Source: Rhodoplanes elegans
GTDB lineage: Bacteria; Pseudomonadota; Alphaproteobacteria; Rhizobiales; Xanthobacteraceae
DNA length: 33,586 bases
Assembly: GCF_016653355.1 (NCBI RefSeq)
Contig: NZ_NHSK01000147.1
Location: forward strand, 1 to 33,586
Direction: 5' to 3'
The notes under the pieces: model-generated
The model's database searches: none
Seen by the model: only the letters and a program-made list of their open reading frames with translations
Told to the model about the DNA's origin: nothing
Translations under genes and position numbers: made by a program
Shown: positions 4,109 through 27,400 of the stretch, piece by piece
How positions within the stretch are numbered: position 1 is the first letter of the stretch
Layout of the letters: each line of letters opens with the position of its first letter

Positions 4109-5548
4109 ATGATCGACCTCGCTCTCGCGACCATCCTGCTGCCGGTCGCCGGCGCCGTCCTGGTGGCGCTCGCGCCGCACGCCTTCGGCAAGCGGCTGTG
4201 CCAGATCTTCACCGGGCTCGCCGGCCTCGCCGTCCTGGTGCTCGCCTGGCGGTTCGCCGACGCCGGCAAGGTGCCGGCCTCGGTGACGCTGATCGCCTAT
4301 GGCGACACGGCGATCCTCGGCTTCACGGTCGACACCGTCTCGGTGCTGGTCGCGGTCGCCGTGGTGGTGATCGGCTTCCTGATCGCCATCTATTCCGGTG
4401 CCTATCTGGGCGCCGGCAACCGCGAGCATCCCGACACCGGCCGGCGGCGCTTCTTCGCCTTCCTGTCGCTGTTCGTCGGCGCCATGGCGGGCCTCGTCTT
4501 CACCGACACGCTGATCGGCCAGCTCGTCTTCTTCGAGATCACGGGCGCCTGCTCGTGGGCGCTGATCGGCTACTACGAGAAGCCGAAGTCGCTGTTCTCG
4601 GCCGCCAAGGCGCTGATCATCACCCACGTCGCCTCGCTCGGCCTCTATGTCGCGGCGAGCGTGCTGTTCCTCGAGACGCACACGTTCTCGCTCTCGGCGA
4701 TCGCCGATCTCGGCACCACCGGCAAGACGATCGTCCTGATCGCCATCCTGGTGGCCGCCTGGGGCAAGTCGGCGCAGCTTCCCTTCCACATGTGGCTGCC
4801 CGACGCCATGGAGGCGCCGACCCCGATCAGCGCCTATCTGCACGCCGCCTCGATGGTGAAGGTCGGCGTCTACATCGTCGCCCGCGCCCTGATGTCGTCC
4901 GGCGGCGCGCCCGAGATCGTCGGCTGGATCGGCTCGGCGATGGCGATCGTGACGCTGATCTACGGCTTCGTCATGTACCTGCCGCAGGCCGATCTCAAGC
5001 GTCTGCTCGCCTATTCGACCATCACGCAGCTCGCTTACATCTTCCTCGCCTTGTCGCTGTCGGTGTTCGGCTCGAAGCTCGCCTTCGACGGCGCCATCGC
5101 GCACGTGTTCAACCACGCCTTCGCCAAGACGCTGTTCTTCCTGGTCGCCGGCGCGCTCAGCTACACGACCGGCACCCGCATGCTGCCGGTGCTGCGCGGC
5201 GTGCTCTCGCGGGCGCCCTTGATCGGCATCGCCTTCACGGTGGCGGCGCTCGCCATCACGGGCGTGCCGCCGTTCAACGGCTTCTTCTCGAAGTTCGCGA
5301 TCTTCGCCGGCGGCTTCTCGGTGTCGCAGGCGCATCCGCTGCTCTACGTGCTGGTCGGCATCGCGCTGATCGAGTCCGTCGGCAGCTTCGCCTGGTTCCT
5401 GAAATGGGTCGGCTGGACCGTGCCCGGCAAGGCGACCGAGCCGGTCGCCGCCGCCGCGCCGCTGCCCGCCGCCATGGGGTTCGTGCTGGTCGTGCTCATC
5501 GCCATGTCGGTGTGCTCGAGCTTCATCGCCGCGGCCTGGCTCGGCTGA
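4109..5548 (+). CDS. hyfD: Hydrogenase-4 membrane subunit HyfD (antiporter-like)
   Basis: 479 residues, the same length as E. coli HyfD. It belongs to the NuoL/MrpA-like proton-translocating family and lies in the inner membrane. The conserved block GKSAQLPFHMWLPDAM near residue 222, followed by APTPISAYLHAASMVKVG, holds the Lys and His positions shared with complex I subunits. A second conserved His segment (IAHVFNHAFAKTLFFLVAG) lies near residue 330. The ATG follows an AGGAG ribosome site. HyfD has no counterpart in E. coli FHL-1, so with HyfE and HyfF it marks a Hyd-4 type complex. Confidence 0.92.
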   Translation: MIDLALATILLPVAGAVLVALAPHAFGKRLCQIFTGLAGLAVLVLAWRFADAGKVPASVTLIAYGDTAILGFTVDTVSVLVAVAVVVIGFLIAIYSGAYLGAGNREHPDTGRRRFFAFLSLFVGAMAGLVFTDTLIGQLVFFEITGACSWALIGYYEKPKSLFSAAKALIITHVASLGLYVAASVLFLETHTFSLSAIADLGTTGKTIVLIAILVAAWGKSAQLPFHMWLPDAMEAPTPISAYLHAASMVKVGVYIVARALMSSGGAPEIVGWIGSAMAIVTLIYGFVMYLPQADLKRLLAYSTITQLAYIFLALSLSVFGSKLAFDGAIAHVFNHAFAKTLFFLVAGALSYTTGTRMLPVLRGVLSRAPLIGIAFTVAALAITGVPPFNGFFSKFAIFAGGFSVSQAHPLLYVLVGIALIESVGSFAWFLKWVGWTVPGKATEPVAAAAPLPAAMGFVLVVLIAMSVCSSFIAAAWLG

Positions 5549-6218: not shown

Positions 6219-7778
6219 ATGTCCTCCGTCCTGCCCTATGTCCTCCTGTTCGGGCCGCTGGTCGGGTCGCTGGCGATCTTCGCCGTGCCGGTCGGTGCCG
6301 GCCCGTCCCGCGTCGTCGAGGTCCTCCACGTGGTCTCGATCGCCGTGGTGCTGGTCGCCGCGCTGGTGACGGGGGGCGTCACGCTCGCCGCGGGGCCGGT
6401 CTCGGCCTTCGGCCAGTGGCTGTGGATCGACCCGCTGGCGGCGATCTTCGTGGGCCTCGTCGGCGTCGTCGGCTTCCTCACCGGGCTCTACTCGCTCGGC
6501 TACGTCCGCCACGACGTCGCCCACGGTGAGCTGACGCCGGCGCGGCACAAGCTCTACTACGGCTTCTTCAACCTGTTCCTGTTCACCATGCTGCTCGCCG
6601 TGACGGCCAACAACATCGTGATGATGTGGGTGGCCATCGAGGCGACGACGCTGGGCTCGGCCTTCCTGGTCGGCATCTACGGCAAGCGTTCCTCGCTCGA
6701 GGCGGCGTGGAAATATGTGATCATCTGCACGGTGGGCGTCGCCTTCGGGCTCTACGGAACCGTGCTCACCTTCTCGAACGGCTCCGAGGTGCTGGCGGAC
6801 CCCGAGGGCGCCATCCTGTGGACCACGCTGGTCGCCAACGCGAAGCTGCTCGACCCGATGCTGGCCAAGCTCGCCTTCGTGTTCGTGCTGATCGGCTTCG
6901 GCACCAAGGCCGGCATCTTCCCGATGCACGCCTGGCTGCCGGACGCCCACTCGGAGGCGCCGAGCCCGGTGTCGGCGCTGCTCTCTGGCGTCCTTCTCAA
7001 GTGCGCCTTGTTCGTGATCATCCGCTACTACGCGATCACCATCCAGGCGGTCGGGCCCGAGTTCCCGCAGACGCTCCTGCTGATCCTCGGCTTCCTGTCG
7101 GTCGGCGTCGCCTCGTTCCTGTTCCTCGTGCAGCAGGACCTCAAGCGCAAGCTCGCCTATTCGAGCGTCGAGCACATCGGCCTGATCCTGCTCGGTCTCG
7201 GCTTCGGCGGTCCGCTCGGCATCGGCGCGGCGCTCCTGCACGCCGTCAACCACTCGTTCGCCAAGGCGCTCCTGTTCTGCGGCTCCGGCAACGTGCTGGT
7301 GAAGTACGGCAGCCGCGATCTCCGCACCGTCAAGGGCCTCCTGCGCGTCGCCCCCGCATCGGGCGTCCTGATGATGGCGGGAGCGCTGGCGCTCGCCGGC
7401 TTCCCGCCCTTCAACGTCTTCGTCAGCGAGTTCATGGTGTTCAGCGCCGGCCTCGGAAGCGGCTGGATCTGGCTCACCATCGCGGCTGCGCTGCTGCTCA
7501 CCGTCACGGTCGCCGGCTTCGTCCAGATCGTGTCCGGTGCCGTGCTCGGCAAGCCGCCGGAGGCAATCCGCAAGGGCGACGTCGGCGCTGCGACGCTCGC
7601 CCCGATGGTCGCCCTGATGGCTCTCGTTCTCGTGTTCGGCGTCGCGATGCCGCGTCCGGTCGGCACGCTGCTCGGCCGCGCCGCCGGCATCGTCGAGGGC
7701 AAGGATGCCGCCGTCCTCACGCTGCCGACCCTGACCTACGGCTTCGCGACGCCCCAGAGCGTCCATGCCAGCCGGTGA
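6219..7778 (+). CDS. hyfF: Hydrogenase-4 membrane subunit HyfF (antiporter-like)
   Basis: 519 residues (E. coli HyfF has 526). It is the third NuoL/M/N-like subunit of this complex. The core motif TKAGIFPMHAWLPDAHSEAP near residue 230, followed by SALLSGVLLKCALFVIIRY, carries the conserved Lys. I chose the ATG at 6219 because AAGGGA sits eight bases upstream. An ATG at 6210 overlapping the hyfE stop is in frame but has no ribosome site. hyfG follows after 25 nt. Confidence 0.91.
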   Translation: MSSVLPYVLLFGPLVGSLAIFAVPVGAGPSRVVEVLHVVSIAVVLVAALVTGGVTLAAGPVSAFGQWLWIDPLAAIFVGLVGVVGFLTGLYSLGYVRHDVAHGELTPARHKLYYGFFNLFLFTMLLAVTANNIVMMWVAIEATTLGSAFLVGIYGKRSSLEAAWKYVIICTVGVAFGLYGTVLTFSNGSEVLADPEGAILWTTLVANAKLLDPMLAKLAFVFVLIGFGTKAGIFPMHAWLPDAHSEAPSPVSALLSGVLLKCALFVIIRYYAITIQAVGPEFPQTLLLILGFLSVGVASFLFLVQQDLKRKLAYSSVEHIGLILLGLGFGGPLGIGAALLHAVNHSFAKALLFCGSGNVLVKYGSRDLRTVKGLLRVAPASGVLMMAGALALAGFPPFNVFVSEFMVFSAGLGSGWIWLTIAAALLLTVTVAGFVQIVSGAVLGKPPEAIRKGDVGAATLAPMVALMALVLVFGVAMPRPVGTLLGRAAGIVEGKDAAVLTLPTLTYGFATPQSVHASR

Positions 7779-7803
7779 CCCGCGCCCGCTAGGAGAGAAC
7801 ACC

Positions 7804-9531
7804 ATGCACGCGCCACAGATGAAGCCGGACACGGTTCGGGTCGGGTCGGACACGATTGCGGCCCTGCGCGAGAAGCTCCCTCACGCCGTGCTCGACGAGA
7901 GCTGGCAGACCGACACCCAGGCGACCCTCACGGTCAAGCTCGACGAGCTGCCGAACGTCGTGTCGACGCTGTATCACGAGCACGACGGCTGGCTCTGCGT
8001 GATGGCCGGCAACGACGAGCGGCAGATCAACGGCAACTTCGCCCTCTACTACGCGCTGTCCATGGAAGGCGCGCAGAAGTCCTTCATCGTGGTGCGGGCA
8101 GAGGTATCGCCGGAGCTCGAGGAGTTTCCCTCGGTGACGCCGCTGGTGCCGGCGGCGGTGTGGCACGAGCGCGAGGTGCGCGACATGTTCGGCCTCACGC
8201 CCGTCGGGCTGCCGGACGAGCGCCGCCTCGTGCTGCCCGACGACTGGCCGGATCATCTCCATCCGCTGCGCAAGGACGCGATGGACTATCGCCTGCGCCC
8301 CGAGCCGACCGGCGACGACGAGACCTATCAGTTCGTAAACGACGCCAAGGGCGAGACCACGGTCGTCCCGCTCGGTCCCCTGCACATCACCTCGGACGAG
8401 CCCGGCCACTTCCGTCTGTTCGTCGACGGCGAGGACATCGTCGACGCCGACTACCGCATGTTCTACGTCCATCGCGGCATGGAGAAGGTCGCCGAGACCC
8501 GGATGGGCTACAACGAGGTGACCTTCCTGGCCGATCGAGTCTGCGGCATCTGCGGCTACGCCCATTCGGTCGCCTACACGATGTCGATCGAGAACGCGCT
8601 CGGCATCGCCGTCCCGGAGCGCGCCCAGGCGATCCGCGCCGTGCTGCTCGAGACCGAGCGGCTGCACAGCCATCTGCTCAATCTCGGCCTCGCCTGTCAC
8701 TTCGTCGGCTTCGACACCGGCTTCATGCAGTTCTTCCGCGTCCGCGAGAAGGCCATGTACTTGGCCGAGCTGCTCACCGGTGCGCGCAAGACCTACGGGC
8801 TCAACCTGATCGGCGGCGTGCGTCGCGACATCCTCGGCGAGCAGAGCGTCGAGACGCTGAAGATCATCGGCGAGCTGCGCGAGGAGGTGACGCGCCTGAT
8901 CGACATGCTGATGGCGACGCCCAATCTCGAAGGCCGGGTGAAGGGCGTCGGAATCCTCGATCCGGACGTTGCCCGCGCCTACTCGCCGGTCGGCCCGACC
9001 GTGCGCGGCAGCGGCCACAAGCGCGACACCCGCGTCGACCACGCCTTCGCGGGCTACAAGTGGGTGAAGCTCGGCATCAACACGGGCGACGGTTGCGACG
9101 TGCTCTCGCGCACCCTGGTCCGGGTCGCCGAGTTCTTCGACAGCCTCTCGGTGATCGAGCAGATCCTCGCCGATGCGCCCGCCGGCCCGATTCTCACCGA
9201 GGACTTCACGTACGTGCCGCACAAGTTCGCGCTCGGCTTCACCGAGGCGCCGCGCGGCGAGGACGTCCACTGGTCGATGACCGGCGACAATCAGAAGCTC
9301 TGGCGCTGGCGCTGCCGCGCATCCACCTACGCGAACTGGCCGGTACTCCGCTACATGCTCCGCGGAAACACGGTGTCCGATGCACCCCTGATCGTCGCGT
9401 CGATCGATCCCTGCTACTCGTGCACGGATCGCGTCACGCTCGTCGACGTGAAGAAGGCGACCAGCACCACCGTCCCCTACAAGGAGATGGAACGCTACTG
9501 CCGCGAGCGCACCGGCTCGCCGCTGAAGTGA
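7804..9531 (+). CDS. hyfG: Hydrogenase-4 large (catalytic) subunit HyfG, NuoC-NuoD fusion with NiFe site
   Basis: 575 residues combining an N-terminal NuoC-like domain (about 1-180, with EREVRDMFGL) and a NuoD-like [NiFe] hydrogenase large-subunit domain, as in HycE (569). The four NiFe ligands are present: C247 and C250 in RVCGICGYAH, and C537 and C540 in DPCYSCTDR. This separates it from NuoD, which lacks them. After R543 a 32-residue tail remains, matching the peptide removed from HycE during maturation, so HycI (11323) is its expected protease. The start at 7804 follows AGGAGA. It catalyses proton reduction to H2 on the cytoplasmic face of the membrane-bound complex. Confidence 0.95.
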   Translation: MHAPQMKPDTVRVGSDTIAALREKLPHAVLDESWQTDTQATLTVKLDELPNVVSTLYHEHDGWLCVMAGNDERQINGNFALYYALSMEGAQKSFIVVRAEVSPELEEFPSVTPLVPAAVWHEREVRDMFGLTPVGLPDERRLVLPDDWPDHLHPLRKDAMDYRLRPEPTGDDETYQFVNDAKGETTVVPLGPLHITSDEPGHFRLFVDGEDIVDADYRMFYVHRGMEKVAETRMGYNEVTFLADRVCGICGYAHSVAYTMSIENALGIAVPERAQAIRAVLLETERLHSHLLNLGLACHFVGFDTGFMQFFRVREKAMYLAELLTGARKTYGLNLIGGVRRDILGEQSVETLKIIGELREEVTRLIDMLMATPNLEGRVKGVGILDPDVARAYSPVGPTVRGSGHKRDTRVDHAFAGYKWVKLGINTGDGCDVLSRTLVRVAEFFDSLSVIEQILADAPAGPILTEDFTYVPHKFALGFTEAPRGEDVHWSMTGDNQKLWRWRCRASTYANWPVLRYMLRGNTVSDAPLIVASIDPCYSCTDRVTLVDVKKATSTTVPYKEMERYCRERTGSPLK

Positions 9532-14987: not shown

Positions 14988-15184
14988 TTTCGGTCGCCCG
15001 GATCATCTACAGTATACGGTATGGAATCAATAGGTAGATGTGCGGAAGAAAGGCGGAGAAGTGTTGTATTAAATAGATGGAGTAAGCAATAAGCCAAGTA
15101 AATCGACCGATAGAAAATCCCGATCGCGGTCCGTCGTCGCGCCGGCACCGCAGGGGGCGAGGTCGACGAGCAAGAGGTTTCGTG
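14988..15184. promoter_or_regulatory. Divergent fdhD-hypB control region
   Basis: This AT-rich stretch between two divergent genes must hold both promoters. It contains an inverted repeat CATCTAC (15004-15010) / GTAGATG (15034-15040) with a 23-base spacer, close to the fdhD start. I could not identify a sigma-54, FNR or NikR site. A strong ribosome site AAGAGG (15172-15177) lies seven bases before the hypB ATG. Confidence 0.5.
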
Positions 15185-16252
15185 ATGTGCACGGTGTGCG
15201 GGTGCGGGACGGGGTCGGTCGAGGCAGCGGGCGGGCGCGGCCACGACCATGCGCATGACCATGCGCACGAGCATTCGCATGACCATGACCACGACCATGG
15301 GCATGCCCACCAGCACGACCACGACCACGTGCATGCCGACGGGACCGTGCACCGCCACTCGCACAGCCATGCGCATGCTCATGTGCATGTCCACGCGCAT
15401 CCGCACGATCATGATCATGATCACGAGCGCCTGCACGCCGACGGCGTTCCGCACGAGCACCCGCACGATCACGACCACCATCATCACCATCATCACGTCC
15501 ACGGGCCGGACGGCGCGTTCGATTACGGCGCGGGCGCCGGGAGCGCGTCGGTGCCGGGCCTGAGCCAGGCCCGGATCGTCAGGATCGAGCGCGACATCCT
15601 CGCGCAGAACGATGCGCATGCGCGCGACAACCGCGCCCGGCTCGCGTCGGCCGGCGTGTTCGCCCTCAACCTCGTGTCCAGCCCCGGCTCGGGCAAGACG
15701 ACGCTGCTGGTGCGCGCCATCCAGGATCTCGCCGGCCGCCTCCCCGTGGTGGTGATCGAGGGCGACCAGCAGACCTCGAACGACGCTGCGCGGATCCGCG
15801 CGACCGGCGCACCGGCGATCCAGATCAACACCGGCAAGGGCTGTCATCTCGATGCCCACATGGTTGGCCACGCGCTGGAGCAGCTTCCGCTCGCCGCCGG
15901 CGGCGTCCTGTTCGTCGAGAATGTCGGCAATCTCGTCTGCCCGGCGGCGTTCGATCTCGGCGAGGCCCACAAGGTCGTCGTTCTGTCGGTGACCGAGGGC
16001 GAGGACAAGCCGCTCAAGTATCCCGACATGTTCGCGGCCGCCGACCTGATGCTCCTGAACAAGTCGGACCTGCTGCCGCATGTCGAGTTCGACGTCGCGG
16101 CCTGCGTCGCCAATGCGCTGCGGGTCAATCCGCGGCTGAAGACGCTGGTCGTCTCGGCCCGCACCGGCGAAGGCCTGCAGGCCTTCTACACCTGGCTCGA
16201 GGCGGGCGCCGCCGTGGCCAAGGCCGCGGCGCCGGCCGCGCCGCGCGGCTGA
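15185..16252 (+). CDS. hypB: Hydrogenase nickel incorporation GTPase HypB with histidine-rich N-terminal region
   Basis: 355 residues. HypB is a GTPase that delivers nickel to the hydrogenase large subunit. The N-terminus MCTVCGCG is the conserved metal-binding start of HypB. Residues about 20-107 form a His-rich stretch with about 42 His, mostly in His-Asp and His-Ala pairs and ending in seven consecutive His. Such nickel-storing stretches are known from rhizobial HypB, but this one is long. The GTPase domain follows, with Walker [10 protein letters not shown] near residue 160 and NKSD near 280. ATG 15185 was chosen over an in-frame GTG at 15182 because of ribosome-site spacing. It leads a hyp operon that lacks hypA. 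Confidence 0.95.
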
Positions 16253-16258
16253 GCCACC

Positions 16259-18559
16259 ATGCTGACCGCCTCGCCGATCCCGACCGGAAGCCCCGTGGCG
16301 CGCGAGCGCATCCGGGTGCGCGGGGTCGTGCAGGGCGTCGGCATGCGGCCCTTCGTGTTCGGCCTCGCCGAACGTCTGGGCCTTGCCGGCGAGGTGCGCA
16401 ACGACGCCGAGGGCGTGCTGATCGAGGCCGAGGGAACGTCGCTCGACGCCTTCGTCGCGGCGTTGCGCGAGGAGGCGCCACCCCTCGCCCGCATCGCGGC
16501 GGTGGAGCGCATGCCGCTGACGCCGACCGGCGCGGCCGGCTTCGTGATCGGGGCGAGCGTCGCCGGGCGTGCCGCGACACTCGTGCCGGCAGACGCGGCG
16601 ACCTGCGGCGATTGCCTCGACGAGCTGTTCGACCCGGCGAGCCGTTTCCATCTCTATCCGTTCCTCAACTGCACGCAGTGCGGGCCGCGCTACACCATCA
16701 CGCGGCGCCTGCCCTACGATCGCCCGAACACCGCAATGGCGGGCTTCCCGATGTGCCCGGCCTGCGCGGCCGCCTACGAGAACCCGCGCGACCGCCGCTT
16801 CCATGCCGAGCCGGTGGCGTGCCCGGACTGCGGGCCGCGGTTGAGCCACGCGATCGCGGAGATCGCCACCGCCTTGCAGGCGGGACAGATCGTCGCGCTG
16901 AAGGGCATCGGCGGCTTCCATCTGATGTGCGACGCGACCGACGAGGCCGCGGTGGCCGAGTTGCGCCGGCGCAAGCGGCGCGACGCCAAGCCGTTCGCCG
17001 TGATGGTAGCGAACGCCGCGTCCCTCGATCTGTTCGCCGTGCCGACCGCCGCCCATGTCGCGCTCGCGACCCGGCCGGCGCGGCCAATCGTGCTGATGCC
17101 GCGGCGACCTGATCACGACGGGCTCGCTGCGTCGGTCGCGCCGAACCTCGCCCATGTCGGCCTCGTGCTGCCCTACGCGCCCGTGCACCACCTGCTGTTC
17201 CACGCGCTGCTCGGCTCGCCGGAGGACAGCGGCTGGCGGAGCGCGCCACAAGAGATCGCCCTGGTCGCGACCAGCGCCAATCCGGGCGGCGAGCCGCTGG
17301 TGATCGACGACGCCGACGCCCGGCGGCGATTGGTCGGGATCGCCGACCTGATCGTCACCCACGACCGGCCGATCGTGGTGCGGGCGGACGACTCGGTGCT
17401 GGCCGTGATCGACGGCGCTCCGGCCTTCATCCGCCGCGCCCGCGGCGCCGTGCCCGAGCCGGTCGATCTCGGCCGCGACGGTCCCTGCGTGCTGGCGCTC
17501 GGCGCCCATCTCAAGACGACCGTGTGCGTCACGCGCGGTCGCGAAGCCTTCGTGTCCCAGCACGTCGGCAATCTCGACACGGTCGAGACGGTGACGTTCT
17601 ATCGCGAGACGATCGATCATCTCACGTCGATCCTCGACGTGAGACCCGACGTCGTCGCCTGCGATCTGCATCCCGACTACCGCTCGACCCGCCTCGCCGA
17701 GACGCTCGGCCTGCCGGTGGTGCGCGTGCAGCACCACGCCGCGCATGTCGCCGCGATCGCGGCCGAGCACGGGATCGCGGGCCCGGTGCTCGGCGTCGCG
17801 CTCGACGGCCACGGCATCGGCACCACGAGCGGCGAGACCGACGGGGCGCCCAGCGGGAACTGGGGCGGCGAGCTGATCGCGGTCGACGGCGCCCGTTGGA
17901 CGCGGCTCGGCCATCTCGCACCGCTGGCGCTGCCCGGTGGCGACCGCGCCGCGCGAGAGCCGTGGCGCATGGCGGTCGCGGCGCTCGCCGCGATCGGGCG
18001 GCGCCACGAGGCGGCTGCGCGATTCCCCGGCATCGCGATCGCAGGCGCGCTGGCGGCGCGCATCGACACTGCGCCGACCACCACCAGCCTCGGCCGTCTG
18101 TTCGACGCGGCGGCGGGCCTCCTCGGCCTGCGCACCCATCAGGATCACGAGGGCCAGGCCGCCATGGAGCTCGAGGCGCTGGTCGGCACACCGCGCGCGC
18201 TCGTCGACGGCTGGACGCTCGCGAACAGCGTGCTCGACTTTGCGCCGCTGCTCGCTGTCCTCGCCGACATCGCGGATCGCCGCGACGGCGCGGCGCTGTT
18301 CCACGGCACGCTGATCGACGGCATCACTGCGTGGATCGTCGAGGCCGCGCAGGCACGCGGGCATCGGACCATCGCGCTCGGCGGCGGCTGCCTGATGAAC
18401 ACGGTGCTGGCCGAGGGCCTCGCGGTGGCGCTGCGGGCGAACGGCCTCGTGCCGCTGCTCGCCCGAAACGTGCCGGCGAACGACGGCGGCCTGTCGCTCG
18501 GCCAGGCCTCCATGGCCCGTGCGGCGGCGACCCGAGGCTTCGGCACCGGAGCGACTTGA
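16259..18559 (+). CDS. hypF: Carbamoyltransferase HypF
   Basis: 766 residues. HypF makes thiocyanate on HypE from carbamoyl phosphate, the source of the CN ligands of the NiFe site. Domains in order: acylphosphatase-like (about 14-100, with [15 protein letters not shown]), zinc fingers (about 115-195, with [38 protein letters not shown] and CPDCGPRL), a YrdC-like domain (about 200-385), and a Kae1-like carbamoyltransferase domain (about 400-766, with [11 protein letters not shown] and [14 protein letters not shown]). All expected blocks are intact. It begins 6 nt after hypB without a strong ribosome site, which suggests translational coupling. Confidence 0.95.
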
Positions 18560-18572
18560 AGGAGATAAGAAG

Positions 18573-18818
18573 ATGTGCCTCGCGATTCCGGCCCGGGTGA
18601 CGGCGCTATTGCCCGATCAAATGGCCAAGGTGAGCCTCGACGGCGTCAGCAAGGTGATCTCGGTGGCGCTTCTCGACGACGTCGCGCCGGGCGACTACGT
18701 GGTGCTTCACGTGGGGTACGCGCTGGCGAAGATCGACGCCGCCGAAGCGGAGCGCACGCTGGCGCTGCTCGCGCAGGCCGGCGCTGCCGCGGCGGCAGAC
18801 GCGGAGGCACCGCGATGA
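18573..18818 (+). CDS. hypC: Hydrogenase assembly chaperone HypC/HybG
   Basis: 81 residues. HypC binds the large-subunit precursor and, with HypD, carries the Fe(CN)2CO group. It starts with MCLAIPARV, whose Cys2 is the essential residue. The start at 18573 follows AGGAGATAAGAAG, a strong ribosome site. The C-terminal Ala-rich tail is a little longer than usual. It overlaps hypD by 4 nt, and the two proteins act together. Confidence 0.95.
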
Positions 18819-19978
18819 AGCATGTCGACGAGTATCGCGACGGCGCGCTGGCGAAGAAGCTCGCGGCGGCGATCGCGGCCGAGGTCGAGCCGGGCCGACG
18901 TTATCACTTCATGGAGTTCTGCGGCGGCCACACCCATGCGATCTCGCGCTACGGCATCGAGGACCTGCTGCCCGCCAACTTGCGGATGATCCACGGCCCC
19001 GGCTGCCCGGTCTGCGTGCTGCCCGTCGGCCGCATGGACGACGCGATCCGGCTGGCGCAACGGCCCGAGATCACGCTGTGCACCTATGGCGACCTGATGC
19101 GGGTGCCGGGCTCGGACGGCGCCAGCCTGCAGAAGGCCAAGGCCGCCGGCGCCGACATCCGCATGGTCTACTCCACCCTCGACGCGCTGAAGCTCGCCGA
19201 ACAGGAGCCCGGCCGCGAGGTGGTGTTCTTCGCCATCGGCTTCGAGACGACGACGCCGCCGACCGCGGTGGCGATCGAGACGGCGGCGGCGAAGGGGCTG
19301 CGCAACTTTTCGATCTTCTGCAACCACGTGCTCACGCCGGCGGCGATCCGCGCCATCATGGAGAGCCCGGAGGCGAAGCGCGGCGAAGTGTCGTTGGACG
19401 GCTTCGTCGGCCCGGCGCATGTGTCGACCGTGATCGGCACGGCACCCTACGGCTTCTGTGCGGACGACTACGGCAAGCCCGTGGTGATCGCCGGCTTCGA
19501 GCCGCTCGACGTGCTGCACGCGATCCTGATGCTGGTGCGCCAGGTCAACCAGGGGCGCGCCGCGATCGAGAACCAGTACATCCGGGCCGTGACGCCGCAC
19601 GGCAACGTCAAGGCGCAGGCGCTGGTGGCGAAGCTGTTCGAGCCGCGGGCGAGCTTCGAGTGGCGCGGGCTCGGCGAGGTTCCGCACGGCGCGCTGAAAC
19701 TGCGCGACGCCTACGCGAGATTCGACGCGGAGACGCGCTTCGGCATCGTCACGGTGCCGGCCAAGGACAATCCGGCCTGCGACTGCGGCGCCATCCTGCG
19801 CGGCGTCAAGCGGCCGGCCGACTGCCGGCTGTTCGGCACCGCCTGTACGCCCGAGACGCCGATGGGCTCCTGCATGGTGTCGTCGGAAGGCGCCTGCGCG
19901 GCGCACTGGACGTATGGGCGCTTCCGCCAGCACGTCCGCACACGTGATCACGTCGTTCCCGAGAAGGCCCCGGCATGA
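18815..19978 (+). CDS. hypD: Hydrogenase maturation protein HypD
   Basis: 387 residues (E. coli HypD 373). An Fe-S protein that, with HypC and HypE, assembles the Fe(CN)2CO unit. Conserved blocks are [13 protein letters not shown] near residue 36, [10 protein letters not shown] near 64, [10 protein letters not shown] near 168, and a Cys-rich C-terminus with [13 protein letters not shown] and [19 protein letters not shown] that binds the [4Fe-4S] cluster. The ATGA overlap with hypC and the 4-nt overlap with hypE indicate one transcript. Confidence 0.95.
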
Positions 19979-21042
19979 CCATCCACACGCCGCACCCGCG
20001 CGCGCGAAAGCTCGACATGAAGAACGACCGGGTCGAGATGACCCATGGCGCCGGCGGCCGCGCCATGGCGCAGCTCATCGCCGACATCTTCGCACCGGCG
20101 CTGAGCAATCCCTACCTCGCGCAGGGCAACGACCAGGCCGCGATGCCGCTGCCGGCCGGCGCCGCCGGCGGCACGCTGGTGATGACGACCGACGGCTACG
20201 TGGTGTCGCCGCTGTTCTTTCCGGGCGGCGACATCGGCTCGCTCGCCGTGCACGGCACCATCAACGATCTCGCGATGAGCGGCGCGACGCCGCTGTGGCT
20301 GTCGGCGAGCTTCATCGTCGAGGAGGGCTTTCCGTTCGCCGATCTCGATCGCATCGCGCGCAGCATGGGCGCTGCCGCCCGTGACGCCGGCGTGCCGGTG
20401 GTGACGGGCGATACCAAGGTGGTGGAACGCGGCAAGGCGGACGGCGTGTTCATCACGACGGCCGGCGTCGGCCTGGTGCCGGCCGGGCTCGCGCTGTCGG
20501 GCGACCTGGCGCGGCCGGGCGACGCCGTGCTGCTCTCGGGCTCGATCGGCGACCACGGCGTCGCCATCATGTCGAGCCGCGAGAACCTGGAGTTCGAGAC
20601 GGCGATCGTCTCCGACTCGGCGGCGCTGCACGGGCTGGTCGTCGACATGGTGAACGTCGCCGGTCCGCATCTCAAGCTGATGCGCGACCCGACCCGCGGC
20701 GGGCTGGCCGCGACCTTGAACGAGATCGCGCACCAGTCCGGCGTCGGCATCACGATCGCCGAGGAGGCGATCCCGGTGAAGCCCGAGGTCGCCGCCGCCT
20801 GCGAGCTCCTCGGCCTCGAGCCGCTCAACGTCGCCAACGAGGGCAAGCTCGTCGCCGTCGTCGCGGCCGGGGGGGCCGACGCGCTGCTCGGCGCTATGAA
20901 GGCGCATCCGCTCGGCCGCGACGCGGCGATCATCGGCCACGTGACCGACGATCCGAACCGCTTCGTCCAGATGACGACCAGTTTCGGCGGCGGCCGCATC
21001 GTCGACTGGCTCGCCGGCGAGCAGCTCCCGCGAATCTGCTGA
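19975..21042 (+). CDS. hypE: Hydrogenase maturation protein HypE
   Basis: 355 residues, of the PurM/AIR synthase-like family. HypE dehydrates the carbamoyl group received from HypF to cyanide on its C-terminal Cys. The protein ends in Pro-Arg-Ile-Cys, exactly the conserved tail. Near the start MTHGAGGRAMAQLI is the family's nucleotide-binding region, and MRDPTRGGLAATLNEIA lies near residue 230. ATG 19975 overlaps the hypD stop. The next gene, the response regulator, starts 11 nt later, so the regulator is cotranscribed with the maturation genes. Confidence 0.95.
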   Translation: MTIHTPHPRARKLDMKNDRVEMTHGAGGRAMAQLIADIFAPALSNPYLAQGNDQAAMPLPAGAAGGTLVMTTDGYVVSPLFFPGGDIGSLAVHGTINDLAMSGATPLWLSASFIVEEGFPFADLDRIARSMGAAARDAGVPVVTGDTKVVERGKADGVFITTAGVGLVPAGLALSGDLARPGDAVLLSGSIGDHGVAIMSSRENLEFETAIVSDSAALHGLVVDMVNVAGPHLKLMRDPTRGGLAATLNEIAHQSGVGITIAEEAIPVKPEVAAACELLGLEPLNVANEGKLVAVVAAGGADALLGAMKAHPLGRDAAIIGHVTDDPNRFVQMTTSFGGGRIVDWLAGEQLPRIC

Positions 21043-23928: not shown

Positions 23929-24738
23929 TCACTTCGCCAACGCATCGCCGAGCCGGCGCGCGTTCTCGCGGAACACGGCGAGCAGATCCTGGTCGGCGCC
24001 GGGGAAGTTGATCAGCGCGACCTGCCGGGCGCCGGTCGCCTCGGCGATGGTGCGGCCGGCCGACGGCGCGCCCTCGCGCTCGGAATGGGCGTTCTTCACC
24101 ACGACGTCGGGCGCCTTCGCGACCAGCTCGGCGAGCTGCGCCGGCTGCAGCGGGCCGGGCCCGTAGAGGCCGACCACCTCGAGCCCGGCGAGCTCGGCCC
24201 ACGGCCGCATGAATCGCTGCACCACCGCTTTCGGCCGCGCATCGCCGCGCCGCGCCGTCGTGTCCGCGACGAGCTGCGCGTAAGCCTCGTCGAAGCCGCG
24301 CAGCCAGGCGGTCGCGGCGGCGGTCGTGCCGAACGCCTGCCCGAGCCGCGTCACCTCCGAGCGCACCGTCTCCGGCGCGTTGACGAGGTCGAGCGTGATC
24401 ACGGTCGCGGCGCTGCCGGCCGCCTCGCGCAGCCGCCGGGCGAAGCCGTCGAACGGCGCCATCACGACGAAATTCGCGTCCGCCACCGCGGCGAGGTCCG
24501 ACGGCTTCGGGTCGTAGTCGGGCGGATGCGGCACGCTCGCCGGCGCCACCACGGTGATCCGTGTCGCCCCGGCCGCGCGCGCGAAGGCCGCCGCCCAGGC
24601 GGTCGAGGCGACGACTTTTGGGCCGTCACCGGCGAGCGTCGCTGCGCCCTGCTGGGTCGACGCGGGCGACGGAAGCATCGCCGCGACGGCAAGCACGAGA
24701 GCGGGAAGAACGAGGGCGGCAAGGACGAAACGTCTCAT
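23929..24738 (-). CDS. Periplasmic metal-binding protein of a ZnuA-family ABC transporter
   Basis: 269 residues with a signal peptide (Arg-Arg at 2-3, hydrophobic 5-21). It belongs to the cluster A-I metal-binding proteins (ZnuA/PsaA/TroA fold): HPPDYDPKPSDLAAVADANF (71-90) is the first ligand block with His71, and a second His occurs at 218 (VKNAHSE). The middle ligand His found in most ZnuA proteins is not evident: the expected place reads RFMRPWAELAGL (175-186). There is also no His-rich zinc loop. Metal preference may therefore differ from zinc. The NikR-like operator upstream of this operon and nikR nearby point to nickel, which is inference. ATGA overlaps the permease gene. Confidence 0.82.
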   Translation of the reverse strand: MRRFVLAALVLPALVLAVAAMLPSPASTQQGAATLAGDGPKVVASTAWAAAFARAAGATRITVVAPASVPHPPDYDPKPSDLAAVADANFVVMAPFDGFARRLREAAGSAATVITLDLVNAPETVRSEVTRLGQAFGTTAAATAWLRGFDEAYAQLVADTTARRGDARPKAVVQRFMRPWAELAGLEVVGLYGPGPLQPAQLAELVAKAPDVVVKNAHSEREGAPSAGRTIAEATGARQVALINFPGADQDLLAVFRENARRLGDALAK

Positions 24739-25547
24739 CTGGCTTTTCCGACCATGAAGGTGAGAAGCGTGATCAGGCCCGAGCACAGGACCAGGACCGG
24801 CCCGGGCGGCTGGTCGATCAGGAGCGCGACCGAGAAGCCGAGGACGTTGCCGGCGAGCCCGAAGCCGATCGCCCAGGCGACCATGCGATCGAAGGAGCTC
24901 GCCACGTTGCGGGCGGCGAGCGCCGGCAGCAGCGTCACGGCGTCGACCAGCAGCGCGCCGGTCAGCGGCAGCGCCGCCGCGATGGCGACCGCGACGACGA
25001 CCAGCAGCAGCATCGCGAGCCCGTCGACCCGGATGCCGGAGCAGCGCGCCAGCTCCATGTCGAACAGCATCAGGGCGAGCGGCCGGCGGAAGCGCAGATA
25101 GACGGCGAGCACGGCGGCCGCGAGCACGGCCAGGATCGTCAGCTCGCGCGGGCCCACGGCGAGCAGCGATCCCCACAGCAGCTCGAAGGCTCCGGCGGCG
25201 TTGACGCCCGACAGCGACAGCATCAGCAGCGCGGCGGCGATCGCCATGGTCATCAACAGCGCCATCGGCCCGGACAGGCCGCCGCGCCGACCCGCGAACG
25301 GCGCGAGCGACGCGCCGGCGAGGCCGCACAGCACGATCGCGCACGCCATCGGATCGAGGCCGGTGAGCAGGCCGAGGCCGACGCCGAGCAGCGCCACGTG
25401 CATCATGGCGAAGCGGGCCGTGACGATGTCGAGGCCGATGATGAACACGCCGACCACCGGCAGGGCGGCGCCGGCGACCAGCAGGGCCGCCACCGCGCGA
25501 TGCACGGCGGGCAGCGCCAGCACGGCCGCCAAGCTTTCGGCGGTCAC
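24735..25547 (-). CDS. Metal ABC transporter permease (ZnuB/ABC-3 family)
   Basis: 270 residues with about eight to nine membrane segments. It is a permease of the ABC-3 family, the channel part of zinc, manganese or iron importers. Recognisable parts are VTARFAMMHVALLGVGLGLL near residue 38 and the C-terminal LTGALLVDAVTLLPALAARN near 190. The GTG start at 25547 overlaps the ATPase stop, and the gene end overlaps the start of the binding protein, so the order is ATPase, permease, binding protein in one transcript. The metal cannot be told from this subunit. Confidence 0.85.
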   Translation of the reverse strand: MTAESLAAVLALPAVHRAVAALLVAGAALPVVGVFIIGLDIVTARFAMMHVALLGVGLGLLTGLDPMACAIVLCGLAGASLAPFAGRRGGLSGPMALLMTMAIAAALLMLSLSGVNAAGAFELLWGSLLAVGPRELTILAVLAAAVLAVYLRFRRPLALMLFDMELARCSGIRVDGLAMLLLVVVAVAIAAALPLTGALLVDAVTLLPALAARNVASSFDRMVAWAIGFGLAGNVLGFSVALLIDQPPGPVLVLCSGLITLLTFMVGKAR

Positions 25548-26263
25548 GCCCGCCACTCGCGCAACCGGCCGTCCGCCATCTCGACCACCCGGTCGCACTG
25601 GTCGGCGATGGTCTTGTCGTGGGTGGCGACCAGGACGCTGACCGGAAGCTCGCGCAGCATCGCCGCGACCGTGTCGCGGGTGGCGAAGTCGAGCGCCGCG
25701 GTCGGCTCGTCGGCGAGCAGCAGGCGCCCGCCCCGGGCGACGGCGCCGAAGGCGCGGGCCAGGAAGCAGCGCTGGAGCTGGCCGCCCGAGAGCGCGTGCA
25801 GCGGCCGGGCTCCGAGCTGGACGATCCCGAGCCGCGCGGCCGCCGCGCCCGCCGCGTCGCGATCGCCGCTGGAGGCGAGCAGCTCGTCGACGGTCAGCGG
25901 GAAGCGGCCGATCGCCTGCCGCTGTGGCACCCACGGCGCCAGCCGGCGCCGCTCGTCCCAGTCGACGCGGCTCGTCGCCACCTTGCCGTCGAGCGCCACG
26001 CGCCCACCGATGGCGGGCTGGAGCCCGAGGATCGCCCGCAGCAGCGTCGACTTGCCGGCCCCGTTGGCGCCGACCAGCGCGACGTGCTCGCCCGGATGAA
26101 TCGTCATCGCGGCGCGATCGACGGCGGCGAGCCCGGAAAGGCGGCAGCTCAGGTCGGTGATATCGAGGTGGGCGCCGAGGGGCGGCTGCACGCCGACGTT
26201 CGACGCGAGAGCCGCGGCCCCGCCGAGGGTCATGTCGCCATCGAGGGTGGAACAGTCGAACAT
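25544..26263 (-). CDS. Metal ABC transporter ATPase (ZnuC-like)
   Basis: 239 residues. The ATPase of the importer, with Walker A GANGAGKST near residue 65, signature LSGGQLQRC near 158, Walker B LLLADEPTAALD near 182, and a switch His in VLVATHDK near 213. About 30 N-terminal residues precede the first ABC strand, so a start further inside (ATG 26233) is possible. No start has a clear ribosome site. Its upstream region carries the NikR-type site, 70-97 bases before the start, overlapping a -10-like TATGAT read on this strand. It is divergent from the cupin gene. Confidence 0.85.
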   Translation of the reverse strand: MFDCSTLDGDMTLGGAAALASNVGVQPPLGAHLDITDLSCRLSGLAAVDRAAMTIHPGEHVALVGANGAGKSTLLRAILGLQPAIGGRVALDGKVATSRVDWDERRRLAPWVPQRQAIGRFPLTVDELLASSGDRDAAGAAAARLGIVQLGARPLHALSGGQLQRCFLARAFGAVARGGRLLLADEPTAALDFATRDTVAAMLRELPVSVLVATHDKTIADQCDRVVEMADGRLREWRA

Positions 26264-26332
26264 GGCTCGTGCGGATGTCCGGCGCGGCGAATCCCGCGGC
26301 CCGATCCGGGCTCGCGGAGTGCGGAATTCTAT

Positions 26333-26360
26333 GTATGAACTTTTTCAGAAGTTATCATAT
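26333..26360. promoter_or_regulatory. NikR operator (nickel-responsive)
   Basis: GTATGA (26333-26338), 16 bases, TCATAT (26355-26360). The established E. coli NikR site is GTATGA-N16-TCATAC, so 11 of 12 half-site bases agree with exact spacing. It lies in a short AT island between the divergent ABC transporter operon and the cupin gene, about 500 bases from nikR. On the - strand one half-site overlaps a -10-like TATGAT, so bound NikR would block transcription of the transporter. The match is seen directly; the regulation is inferred. Confidence 0.82.
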
Positions 26361-26451
26361 GGTGCCCACACGGTCCAGCGCAGGCGGTGCGGAGCGGACC
26401 ACCCAGGAGGCGCATGCGGGCTCCGCCCGGCGCCGCGATCGGAGGCGGAGC

Positions 26452-26814
26452 ATGGAGCGAGACGTGACGGATCAGGCGGACGCGGCCGGCGTCCCGGAGA
26501 TCAAGTCGATCGCGTTCGACGGGATCGACCTGCCCTACGCGCTGCTGCTGAAGGGACCGCCGGAGACCAAGTCGTTCCGCTCCGGGCTCGTCACGCTGGC
26601 CCCCGGCAAGTCGATCGGCGTGCACAACAGCGGCATCAACGAGGAGATGCTGGTGCCGCTCGAAGGCGAAGGCGAGCTGAGGTTTCCCGATCGTCCAGCG
26701 CTCGCGCTGCGGCCCGGCGTCGTCACCTACGCGCCGGCCCATTCCGAGCACGACGTGATCAACACCGGCACCGGCCGGCTGCGCTACATCTTCATCCTGG
26801 CACGGACGGAGTGA
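26452..26814 (+). CDS. Small cupin-domain protein next to the NikR site
   Basis: 120 residues, one cupin barrel. Motif 1 is GVHNSGINEEMLVPLEGEG near residue 59 and motif 2 is PAHSEHDVINTG near 96, with several His and Glu that could bind a metal. No enzymatic function can be assigned. I chose ATG 26452 because GGAGG (26441-26445) sits six bases upstream. The frame stays open to 26269 but without family resemblance. It is transcribed away from the ABC transporter across the NikR operator, with the operator 92 bases before its start, so it may belong to the nickel regulon. It is convergent with nikR. Confidence 0.75.
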   Translation: MERDVTDQADAAGVPEIKSIAFDGIDLPYALLLKGPPETKSFRSGLVTLAPGKSIGVHNSGINEEMLVPLEGEGELRFPDRPALALRPGVVTYAPAHSEHDVINTGTGRLRYIFILARTE

Positions 26815-26842: not shown

Positions 26843-27400
26843 CTAGCCGGCGCGGCCGCGGCGCTTGGGCGCGGCACCACGGCGGGACGGGCCGGCGTCG
26901 TCATGGCCGTGCGGGTGGTGATGCGCGTGATCGTGCGTGTGGGGATGCGCATGATCGTGGGCGTGCGGATGCCCGTGGCCGGCGTGGTCGTGCGCCCCCG
27001 GCGACTCCGGCACGATGTAGAGATGCCCGTGCCGCACCCCGCGCTGGGTGATGACGCTGTCGGCGAAGGCCGAGACGTCGCTCATCGGCCCGCGCAGCAC
27101 CGCGACCTCCAGGCAGTCGTCGTGCGACAGATGCACGTGCATGGTGGCGATCGACAGGTCGTGGTGATCGTGTTGCCGCGACGTCAGCCGGCGGGCGAGG
27201 TCGCGAGTCTCGTGCTCGTAGACATAGGCGAGCGCCGCGAAGCACGGCTCGGTGCCGGACTGCCGGGTGCGCTCGCTCGCCTCGGCCTGGCGGACCATGT
27301 CGCGGATCGCCTCCGACCGGTTCTGATAGCCGCGTCGCACGCACAGCGCGTCGAGCGCTTCGAGAAGATCGTCGTCGATCGCGATCGTGACCCGCTGCAT
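26843..27400 (-). CDS. nikR: Nickel-responsive regulator NikR with histidine-rich C-terminal tail
   Basis: 185 residues against 133 in E. coli. The N-terminus (1-45, [20 protein letters not shown]) is the ribbon-helix-helix DNA-binding domain. The ACT-like metal domain holds all four nickel ligands: H77, H88, H90 and C96 ([15 protein letters not shown]). After the usual end ([13 protein letters not shown], about 123-135) comes an extra tail with 16 His between residues 137 and 166, then a basic Arg/Lys-rich end. The tail could hold extra nickel or tune sensing. Its likely operator is at 26333-26360. nikR lies on its own, downstream of a tRNA and facing the cupin gene. Confidence 0.95.

Follow-up and report, generated by a model that had tools for sequence, protein, structure and literature searches.

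Gene content of the locus

The window analyzed here, 33,586 nucleotides long, is the whole of contig C147 of the Rhodoplanes elegans genome. Its left two thirds are occupied by a formate-hydrogenlyase-like cluster consisting of hydrogenase-4/complex-I-like subunits (recognized by eye), FocA, FdhD, and hyp genes. The [NiFe]-hydrogenase large subunit is encoded on the plus strand (7765..9531; PF00346, PF00329, and PF00374) and carries both nickel-binding cysteine motifs, RVCGICG and DPCYSC, as read by eye. The hydrogenase maturation genes hypB, hypF, hypD, and hypE, named by eye from their translations, lie on the same strand (15182..21042). Beyond the hydrogenase cluster come a response regulator, a histidine kinase, three ABC transporter genes on the minus strand facing a cupin gene, and nikR.

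The ABC operon begins with the ATPase (25544..26263, minus strand; PF00005, 86.3 bits), followed by an ABC-3 (ZnuB-like) permease (24735..25547, minus strand; PF00950, 121.7 bits versus 20.1), for which the GTG start at 25547 is our own reading, and a divergent ZnuA/TroA-type substrate-binding protein (23929..24738, minus strand; PF01297, 37.6 bits versus 29). The PF01297 match covers only positions 1-79 of 263, scored 23 bits (below the cut-off) in a six-frame search, and was accompanied by no NCBIfam match for the binding protein. An AlphaFold model of this protein (pLDDT 88.2, alignment of 41 of the 81 sequences) matches ZnuA, AztC, and PsaA with query TM-scores of 0.56-0.66 among the 50 matches listed, and as modeled the protein is of the ZnuA/TroA fold. 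Since both the ABC-3 permease and the ZnuA-type binding protein were matched, the system belongs among the ABC-3/ZnuA-TroA importers. An earlier note on this DNA had called the transporter ZnuABC-type, a term that fits its fold and architecture, although it does not belong to ZnuABC proper, as the permease falls below the ZnuB equivalog cut-off (70.8 bits versus 284). Matches to the AztABC models were also below cut-off (AztB, 68.3 versus 280; AztA, 111.1 versus 220).

The small cupin gene (26452..26814, plus strand; PF07883) is divergent from the ABC operon and shares the operator region with it. The nikR gene (26843..27400, minus strand) was identified by TIGR02793 (186.2 bits, cut-off 175.45) and NF002815 (205.8 versus 83), its product matches both PF01402 (ribbon-helix-helix) and PF08753 (NikR_C), and it gives the only NikR_C match in the R. 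elegans genome. In an alignment to 1q5v, with positions counted by hand, all four nickel ligands (His76, His87, His89, and Cys95 in E. coli numbering; PMC7055735, excerpt) are identical in the window NikR. In both Rhodoplanes genomes the protein ends in a His-rich C-terminal tail that extends past the end of the E. coli protein by about 50 residues (26843-26995 in the window; L158 10681-11241 in R. tepidamans). His-rich stretches of HypB buffer nickel, and by analogy the NikR tail may do the same.

A predicted NikR operator between the ABC operon and the cupin gene

The dyad GTATGA-N16-TCATAT, a predicted NikR operator without assigned strand, lies at 26333..26360 between the divergent ABC operon and cupin gene, as the earlier note had claimed. 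This 28-mer, GTATGAACTTTTTCAGAAGTTATCATAT, agrees at 11 of 12 positions, and with exact spacing, with the E. coli NikR operator GTATGA-N16-TCATAC (PMC7055735, excerpt), so that the claimed agreement was borne out. When the 188-base intergenic stretch (26264-26451) was dinucleotide-shuffled, 11/12 was reached in 0 of 2000 shuffles. A whole-genome scan, proposed in the earlier note, was performed on 6.54 Mb in 320 contigs and returned 23 places with at most two mismatches, compared with 11 for the pattern read backwards as a control. The window site was the only place in the genome with one mismatch, and none had fewer. With R/Y allowed at the ends of the pattern, 51 places were found (control, 20), and only 26333-26360 had no mismatches.

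The site is 69 bases from the ATPase start codon and 91 bases from the cupin ATG. The nikR gene had been placed about 500 bases away; its 3' (near) end is about 480 bases from the site and its start about 1 kb. The -10-like TATGAT described on the transporter strand is present in its letters, but no sigma-70-type promoter was matched by a promoter scan in 26200-26500, which leaves that part of the claim weak and also counts against the interpretation favored below. An inner repeat within the site, AACTT-N6-AAGTT, was set aside, being off-centre and not kept in R. tepidamans.

Conservation in Rhodoplanes tepidamans and NikR-like sites at TonB receptor genes

The ATPase, permease, binding protein, and cupin gene are found at the same relative places in R. 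tepidamans, with 69, 76, 75, and 83% identity, respectively, in the best segment. The intergenic site there, ATATGATAATTCGTCGAAATGGTAATAC (L054 7143-7170), matches at 10/12, a score reached in 7 of 2000 shuffles, and it is one of nine places with at most two mismatches in the 6.9-Mb genome (backward control, six). The earlier note had let its claim stand or fall with conservation at orthologous loci, and at this locus the site is kept. The best place in the R. tepidamans genome (11/12) falls between nikR and a TonB receptor gene on a contig other than that of the ABC locus. In R. tepidamans the ABC genes have thus kept their site even though nikR has not remained beside them. A 9/12 NikR-like site also precedes hupE in R. 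tepidamans (L158 7063-7090).

TonB receptor genes were likewise preceded by NikR-like sites in R. elegans. On contig C206, two tandem 10/12 sites (5 of 2000 shuffles of a 301-base stretch) precede, by 6 and 39 bases, the start predicted for a gene that Pfam identifies as a TonB receptor (L157 4782-6954), a candidate outer-membrane nickel receptor. This place was examined since the contig also holds HupE and was not chosen beforehand. Together, such sites stand before TonB receptor genes in both Rhodoplanes genomes and in two of the three beta-proteobacterial loci described below. The TonB receptors of the two Rhodoplanes genomes are only about 25% identical, which counts against the favored interpretation.

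The remaining places with up to two mismatches were sorted with a rough gene caller. Once the window site and the pair of TonB receptor sites are set aside, R. elegans has 20 further places, of which nine were inside open reading frames, ten in intergenic stretches, and the last (C156:6334) inside an open reading frame; the seven others in R. tepidamans were three inside open reading frames and four intergenic. By eye, none of these 2-mismatch places in either Rhodoplanes genome was nickel-related, with the possible exception of one on R. elegans contig C173 (L185 1503-1530). That place, GCATGA-N16-TCATGC, is a perfect dyad in its half-sites and separates the gene for the binding protein from that for the permease in an ABC operon that by eye is DppA/NikA-like.

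Distribution of the transporter and its neighbors

The transporter was followed in the best 80 of 154 confirmed relatives. In each of these 80 loci tblastn found all three components (ATPase, permease, and binding protein), with ATPase identities of 47-69%, and by record title the loci came from 69 Actinobacteria, 7 Chloroflexi, 3 beta-proteobacteria, and R. tepidamans, the closest named relative among the matches listed (permease 76% identical). A binding-protein profile was matched in only 1 of 398 Pseudomonadota genomes (R. elegans itself), and the permease in 2 of 6 genomes of the genus at E <= 1e-40 and in 41 of 385 genomes of the class at E <= 1e-15, where the best match outside R. elegans was only 35% identical. 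These sparse matches indicate that the branch is rare near R. elegans. The transporter forms a branch of its own within the ZnuA/TroA type, one that is common in Actinobacteria and also occurs in Chloroflexi. In a permease tree of 29 of the 81 sequences, without outgroups, the NikR-linked transporters were grouped at support 50/57; in the same sampling, the five proteobacterial binding proteins did not form one clade. Besides R. elegans, 23 genomes with the transporter were searched for NikR, which was present in four, exactly the four proteobacteria, and in 0 of the 19 actinobacterial and chloroflexan genomes; this absence counts against the favored interpretation.

Genes adjoining the transporter in the 80 loci were clustered from a rough gene caller, with one member of each cluster run against Pfam. 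The recurrent clusters were CoA-transferase III (51 loci), AMP-ligase (48), an MFS protein (41), acyl-CoA dehydrogenase (21), and heavy-metal P-type ATPase (18). The first four recur near the transporter in L066, L067, L110, L125, and other actinobacterial loci; as speculation, their products could synthesize a small metal chelator and export it. PCuAC was placed beside the transporter in three loci by cluster, and two of these were run against Pfam (L078 and L082). Because such copper-linked neighbors occur in relatives, the ancestral metal may not be nickel. Apart from its copy in R. tepidamans, the window cupin had no match in the 80 loci.

In all three loci from beta-proteobacteria (L068, L082, and L096), nikR and a TonB receptor gene lie within about 5 kb of the transporter. 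Their TonB receptors form one family (45-73% identity), and a NikR-like site precedes the receptor in two of the three. In L082 a 10/12 site is found before the receptor-ABC genes (10 of 2000 shuffles). In L096 a match of 11/12 occurs only at spacing N15; shuffles covered spacing N16, at which 1884 of 2000 do as well as the locus. The N15 spacing agrees with the N13/14 stated for GTATGAT, a longer half-site (PMC545781, excerpt). L068 has no site before its ABC genes (8/12, 609 of 2000 shuffles) and nothing above 9/12 in the 16.8-kb locus. A second nikR in the L068 genome is downstream of a CbiM gene with a 10/12 site in front (3 of 2000 shuffles). Since the pattern, at up to two mismatches, is no more frequent than the backward control in the L082 genome (26 versus 35) or the L096 genome (16 versus 27), the beta-proteobacterial sites rest on their position. 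In L082, DUF1775 and PCuAC copper-type genes (4172-5254) stand directly before the NikR-like site and the receptor-ABC genes.

An alignment of the binding proteins shows His71 (window numbering) in all 81 rows and His218 in 71. Exactly one Met is present at positions 177 and 219 in 76 of the 81 rows, with both in three and neither in two, although the rows are related sequences and not independent events. Met219, next to the His218 position, occurs without Met177 in 64 rows, and Met177 without Met219 in all five proteobacterial binding proteins and also in seven actinobacterial rows.

A predicted NikR-controlled nickel route

Comparison of these loci suggests that NikR represses a nickel route, made up of a TonB receptor and the ABC importer, that feeds the adjacent [NiFe]-hydrogenase, and we consider this reading probable for the locus as a whole. 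When nickel is sufficient in the cytoplasm, Ni-NikR would bind 26333-26360 and repress the ABC operon and perhaps the cupin gene too. When nickel is short, the ABC operon would be expressed and would import nickel, free or chelated, for the neighboring [NiFe]-hydrogenase, which is the likely consumer. Entry through the outer membrane would be provided by the TonB receptor encoded elsewhere and itself preceded by NikR-like sites. The parts of this reading differ in strength. Control by NikR is well supported at the level of sequence, and nickel is the likely substrate, while we infer NikR binding, repression, and the partnership with the TonB receptor. The R. elegans genome also has HupE/UreJ, NicO, and CbiM matches, so the ABC importer need not be the only nickel route or an essential one.

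Several lines of evidence support this NikR-nickel reading. The site is rare and conserved in R. tepidamans, NikR has its nickel ligands, TonB receptor genes carry sites of their own, and nikR is linked to the transporter in beta-proteobacteria. The transporter adjoins a [NiFe]-hydrogenase cluster, and NikR is present in 4 of 4 other proteobacterial genomes searched. A Zur box is found at one canonical znuA gene but not here, and the znu regions reach no more than 8/12 for NikR. The reading is weakened by the L068 locus, which lacks a site throughout, and by the L082 and L096 genomes, in which there is no excess over the control.

Alternative explanations

The earlier note had named a response to zinc (Zur) in place of nickel among the findings that would refute its claim. 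The ZnuABC-like fold and architecture would suit a zinc importer, but the intergenic stretch of the window scored only 3.8 bits for Zur (120 of 1000 shuffles), in a scoring built on Paracoccus sites (PMC5387054, excerpt), and thus has no Zur box. Two canonical ZnuA proteins are encoded elsewhere in the R. elegans genome, which also argues against zinc as the substrate here. These genes served as positive controls, and the scoring worked at one of the two: znuA on C88 has a Zur box of 16.7 bits (0 of 1000 shuffles), whereas znuA on C150 scored 4.8 bits (119 of 1000 shuffles). As the C150 gene also lacks a Zur box, the missing box at the window operon is not decisive alone. Within the 12-13 kb surrounding each canonical znuA gene, no NikR-like site scored above 8/12. 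Zur control of the window operon is thus disfavored, and a zinc importer under Zur appears highly improbable. In the 80 loci, raw consensus scores for actinobacterial Nur and Zur boxes before the ATPase gave no match common to most loci; single high raw scores for the Zur box were found in L085 (13/15) and in L055 and L056 (12/15). A chance dyad would fit the totals from the five genomes, where the pattern, with up to two mismatches allowed, occurs at 9 to 26 places and the backward control at 6 to 35. It would not readily account for the sole one-mismatch place in the genome, its orthologous conservation, or the 0 of 2000 shuffles, and we regard chance as the least probable explanation of all. 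Alternatively, the dyad may chiefly control the divergent cupin gene, with the ABC operon a mere neighbor. The site is between both genes, and the cupin is kept at the same place in R. tepidamans (83% identical). The beta-proteobacterial loci, however, have nikR near the ABC genes and no match to the window cupin, and the site is closer to the ATPase start than to the cupin start (69 versus 91 bases), making a site chiefly for the cupin improbable.

A more serious alternative is that the dyad is a true NikR operator but that the transporter mainly carries a different metal (copper, cobalt, iron, or zinc) or a metal chelate, with nickel control as cross-talk. Actinobacterial relatives near the copper-type genes PCuAC (L078) and DUF1775 (L066), the heavy-metal P-type ATPase cluster in 18 of the 80 loci (one member run against Pfam), and the DUF1775 and PCuAC genes just upstream in L082 are all consistent with this possibility, as is the Met next to the His218 position in most relatives. 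In L082, however, the copper-type genes lie on one side of the NikR-like site and the TonB receptor-ABC genes on the other. All five proteobacterial binding proteins lack Met219 and have Met177, though seven actinobacterial rows do likewise, and the cluster in the window is that of a [NiFe]-hydrogenase, with no copper gene noticed among its members. On balance, we consider another main substrate unlikely. A broader form of the NikR-nickel reading is that a distinct ABC-3/ZnuA-type branch, represented in Actinobacteria, Chloroflexi, and a small number of Proteobacteria, uses a His-Met site to handle nickel or a chelate of it and in Proteobacteria was taken under NikR control together with TonB receptors, giving a complete outer-plus-inner-membrane route. 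This is possible, and we propose it only tentatively.

Relation to known systems

The locus resembles the NikR-nikABCDE system of E. coli in the metal ligands of NikR, in a nearly identical operator, and in an ABC nickel importer that serves [NiFe]-hydrogenase. It differs in that NikABCDE is of the peptide-transporter type whereas the window importer is of the ABC-3/ZnuA type, and in the His-rich tail of the window NikR, which E. coli NikR does not have. With ZnuABC, AztABC, and TroABC it shares the permease family, the binding-protein fold, and the three-gene architecture. In contrast to these systems, the window genes are below the ZnuB, AztB, and AztA cut-offs, a NikR-like site takes the place of a Zur site, and the Pfam ZnuA match is N-terminal only, with an invariant His71 and other positions changed (Met177 or Met219).

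NikR-linked nickel importers have been predicted from gene context and operator sites before, namely NikMNQO (ECF) in delta-proteobacteria, although these belong to another transporter class and have the operator consensus GTGTTAC-N13/14-GTAACAC (PMC545781, excerpt). Helicobacter pylori likewise combines, in one organism, an ABC nickel importer, NiuBDE, with NikR-controlled uptake factors (fecA3 and frpB4), according to excerpts of PMC7840056, PMC5140060, and PMC7055735. Its permease differs in type from the ABC-3 permease of the window. NiuD is a FecCD-type permease. Within the part of it available to us, a 2009 inventory of nickel and cobalt transporters covers Cbi/NikMNQO, NikABCDE, NiCoT, UreH, and HupE/UreJ, and a ZnuABC-like nickel importer is not among these classes (PMC2667541, excerpt). 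Searches of the open-licence literature yielded no report of a ZnuABC-like nickel importer or of this R. elegans locus. As predicted here, a NikR-controlled importer of the ZnuA/ABC-3 class would be a variant not found in that literature.

If nickel is the substrate, the annotation of branch members as zinc or manganese transporters would be wrong, and the branch, with its Met177/Met219 variation, would form a natural set for finding determinants of metal choice in the ZnuA fold. The locus also offers a ready test of nickel supply in a hydrogen-producing Rhodoplanes relative. Within the branch, one chloroflexan binding protein (L060 8946-10931) carries a long fused tail in which His-rich stretches and three repeats were seen by eye.
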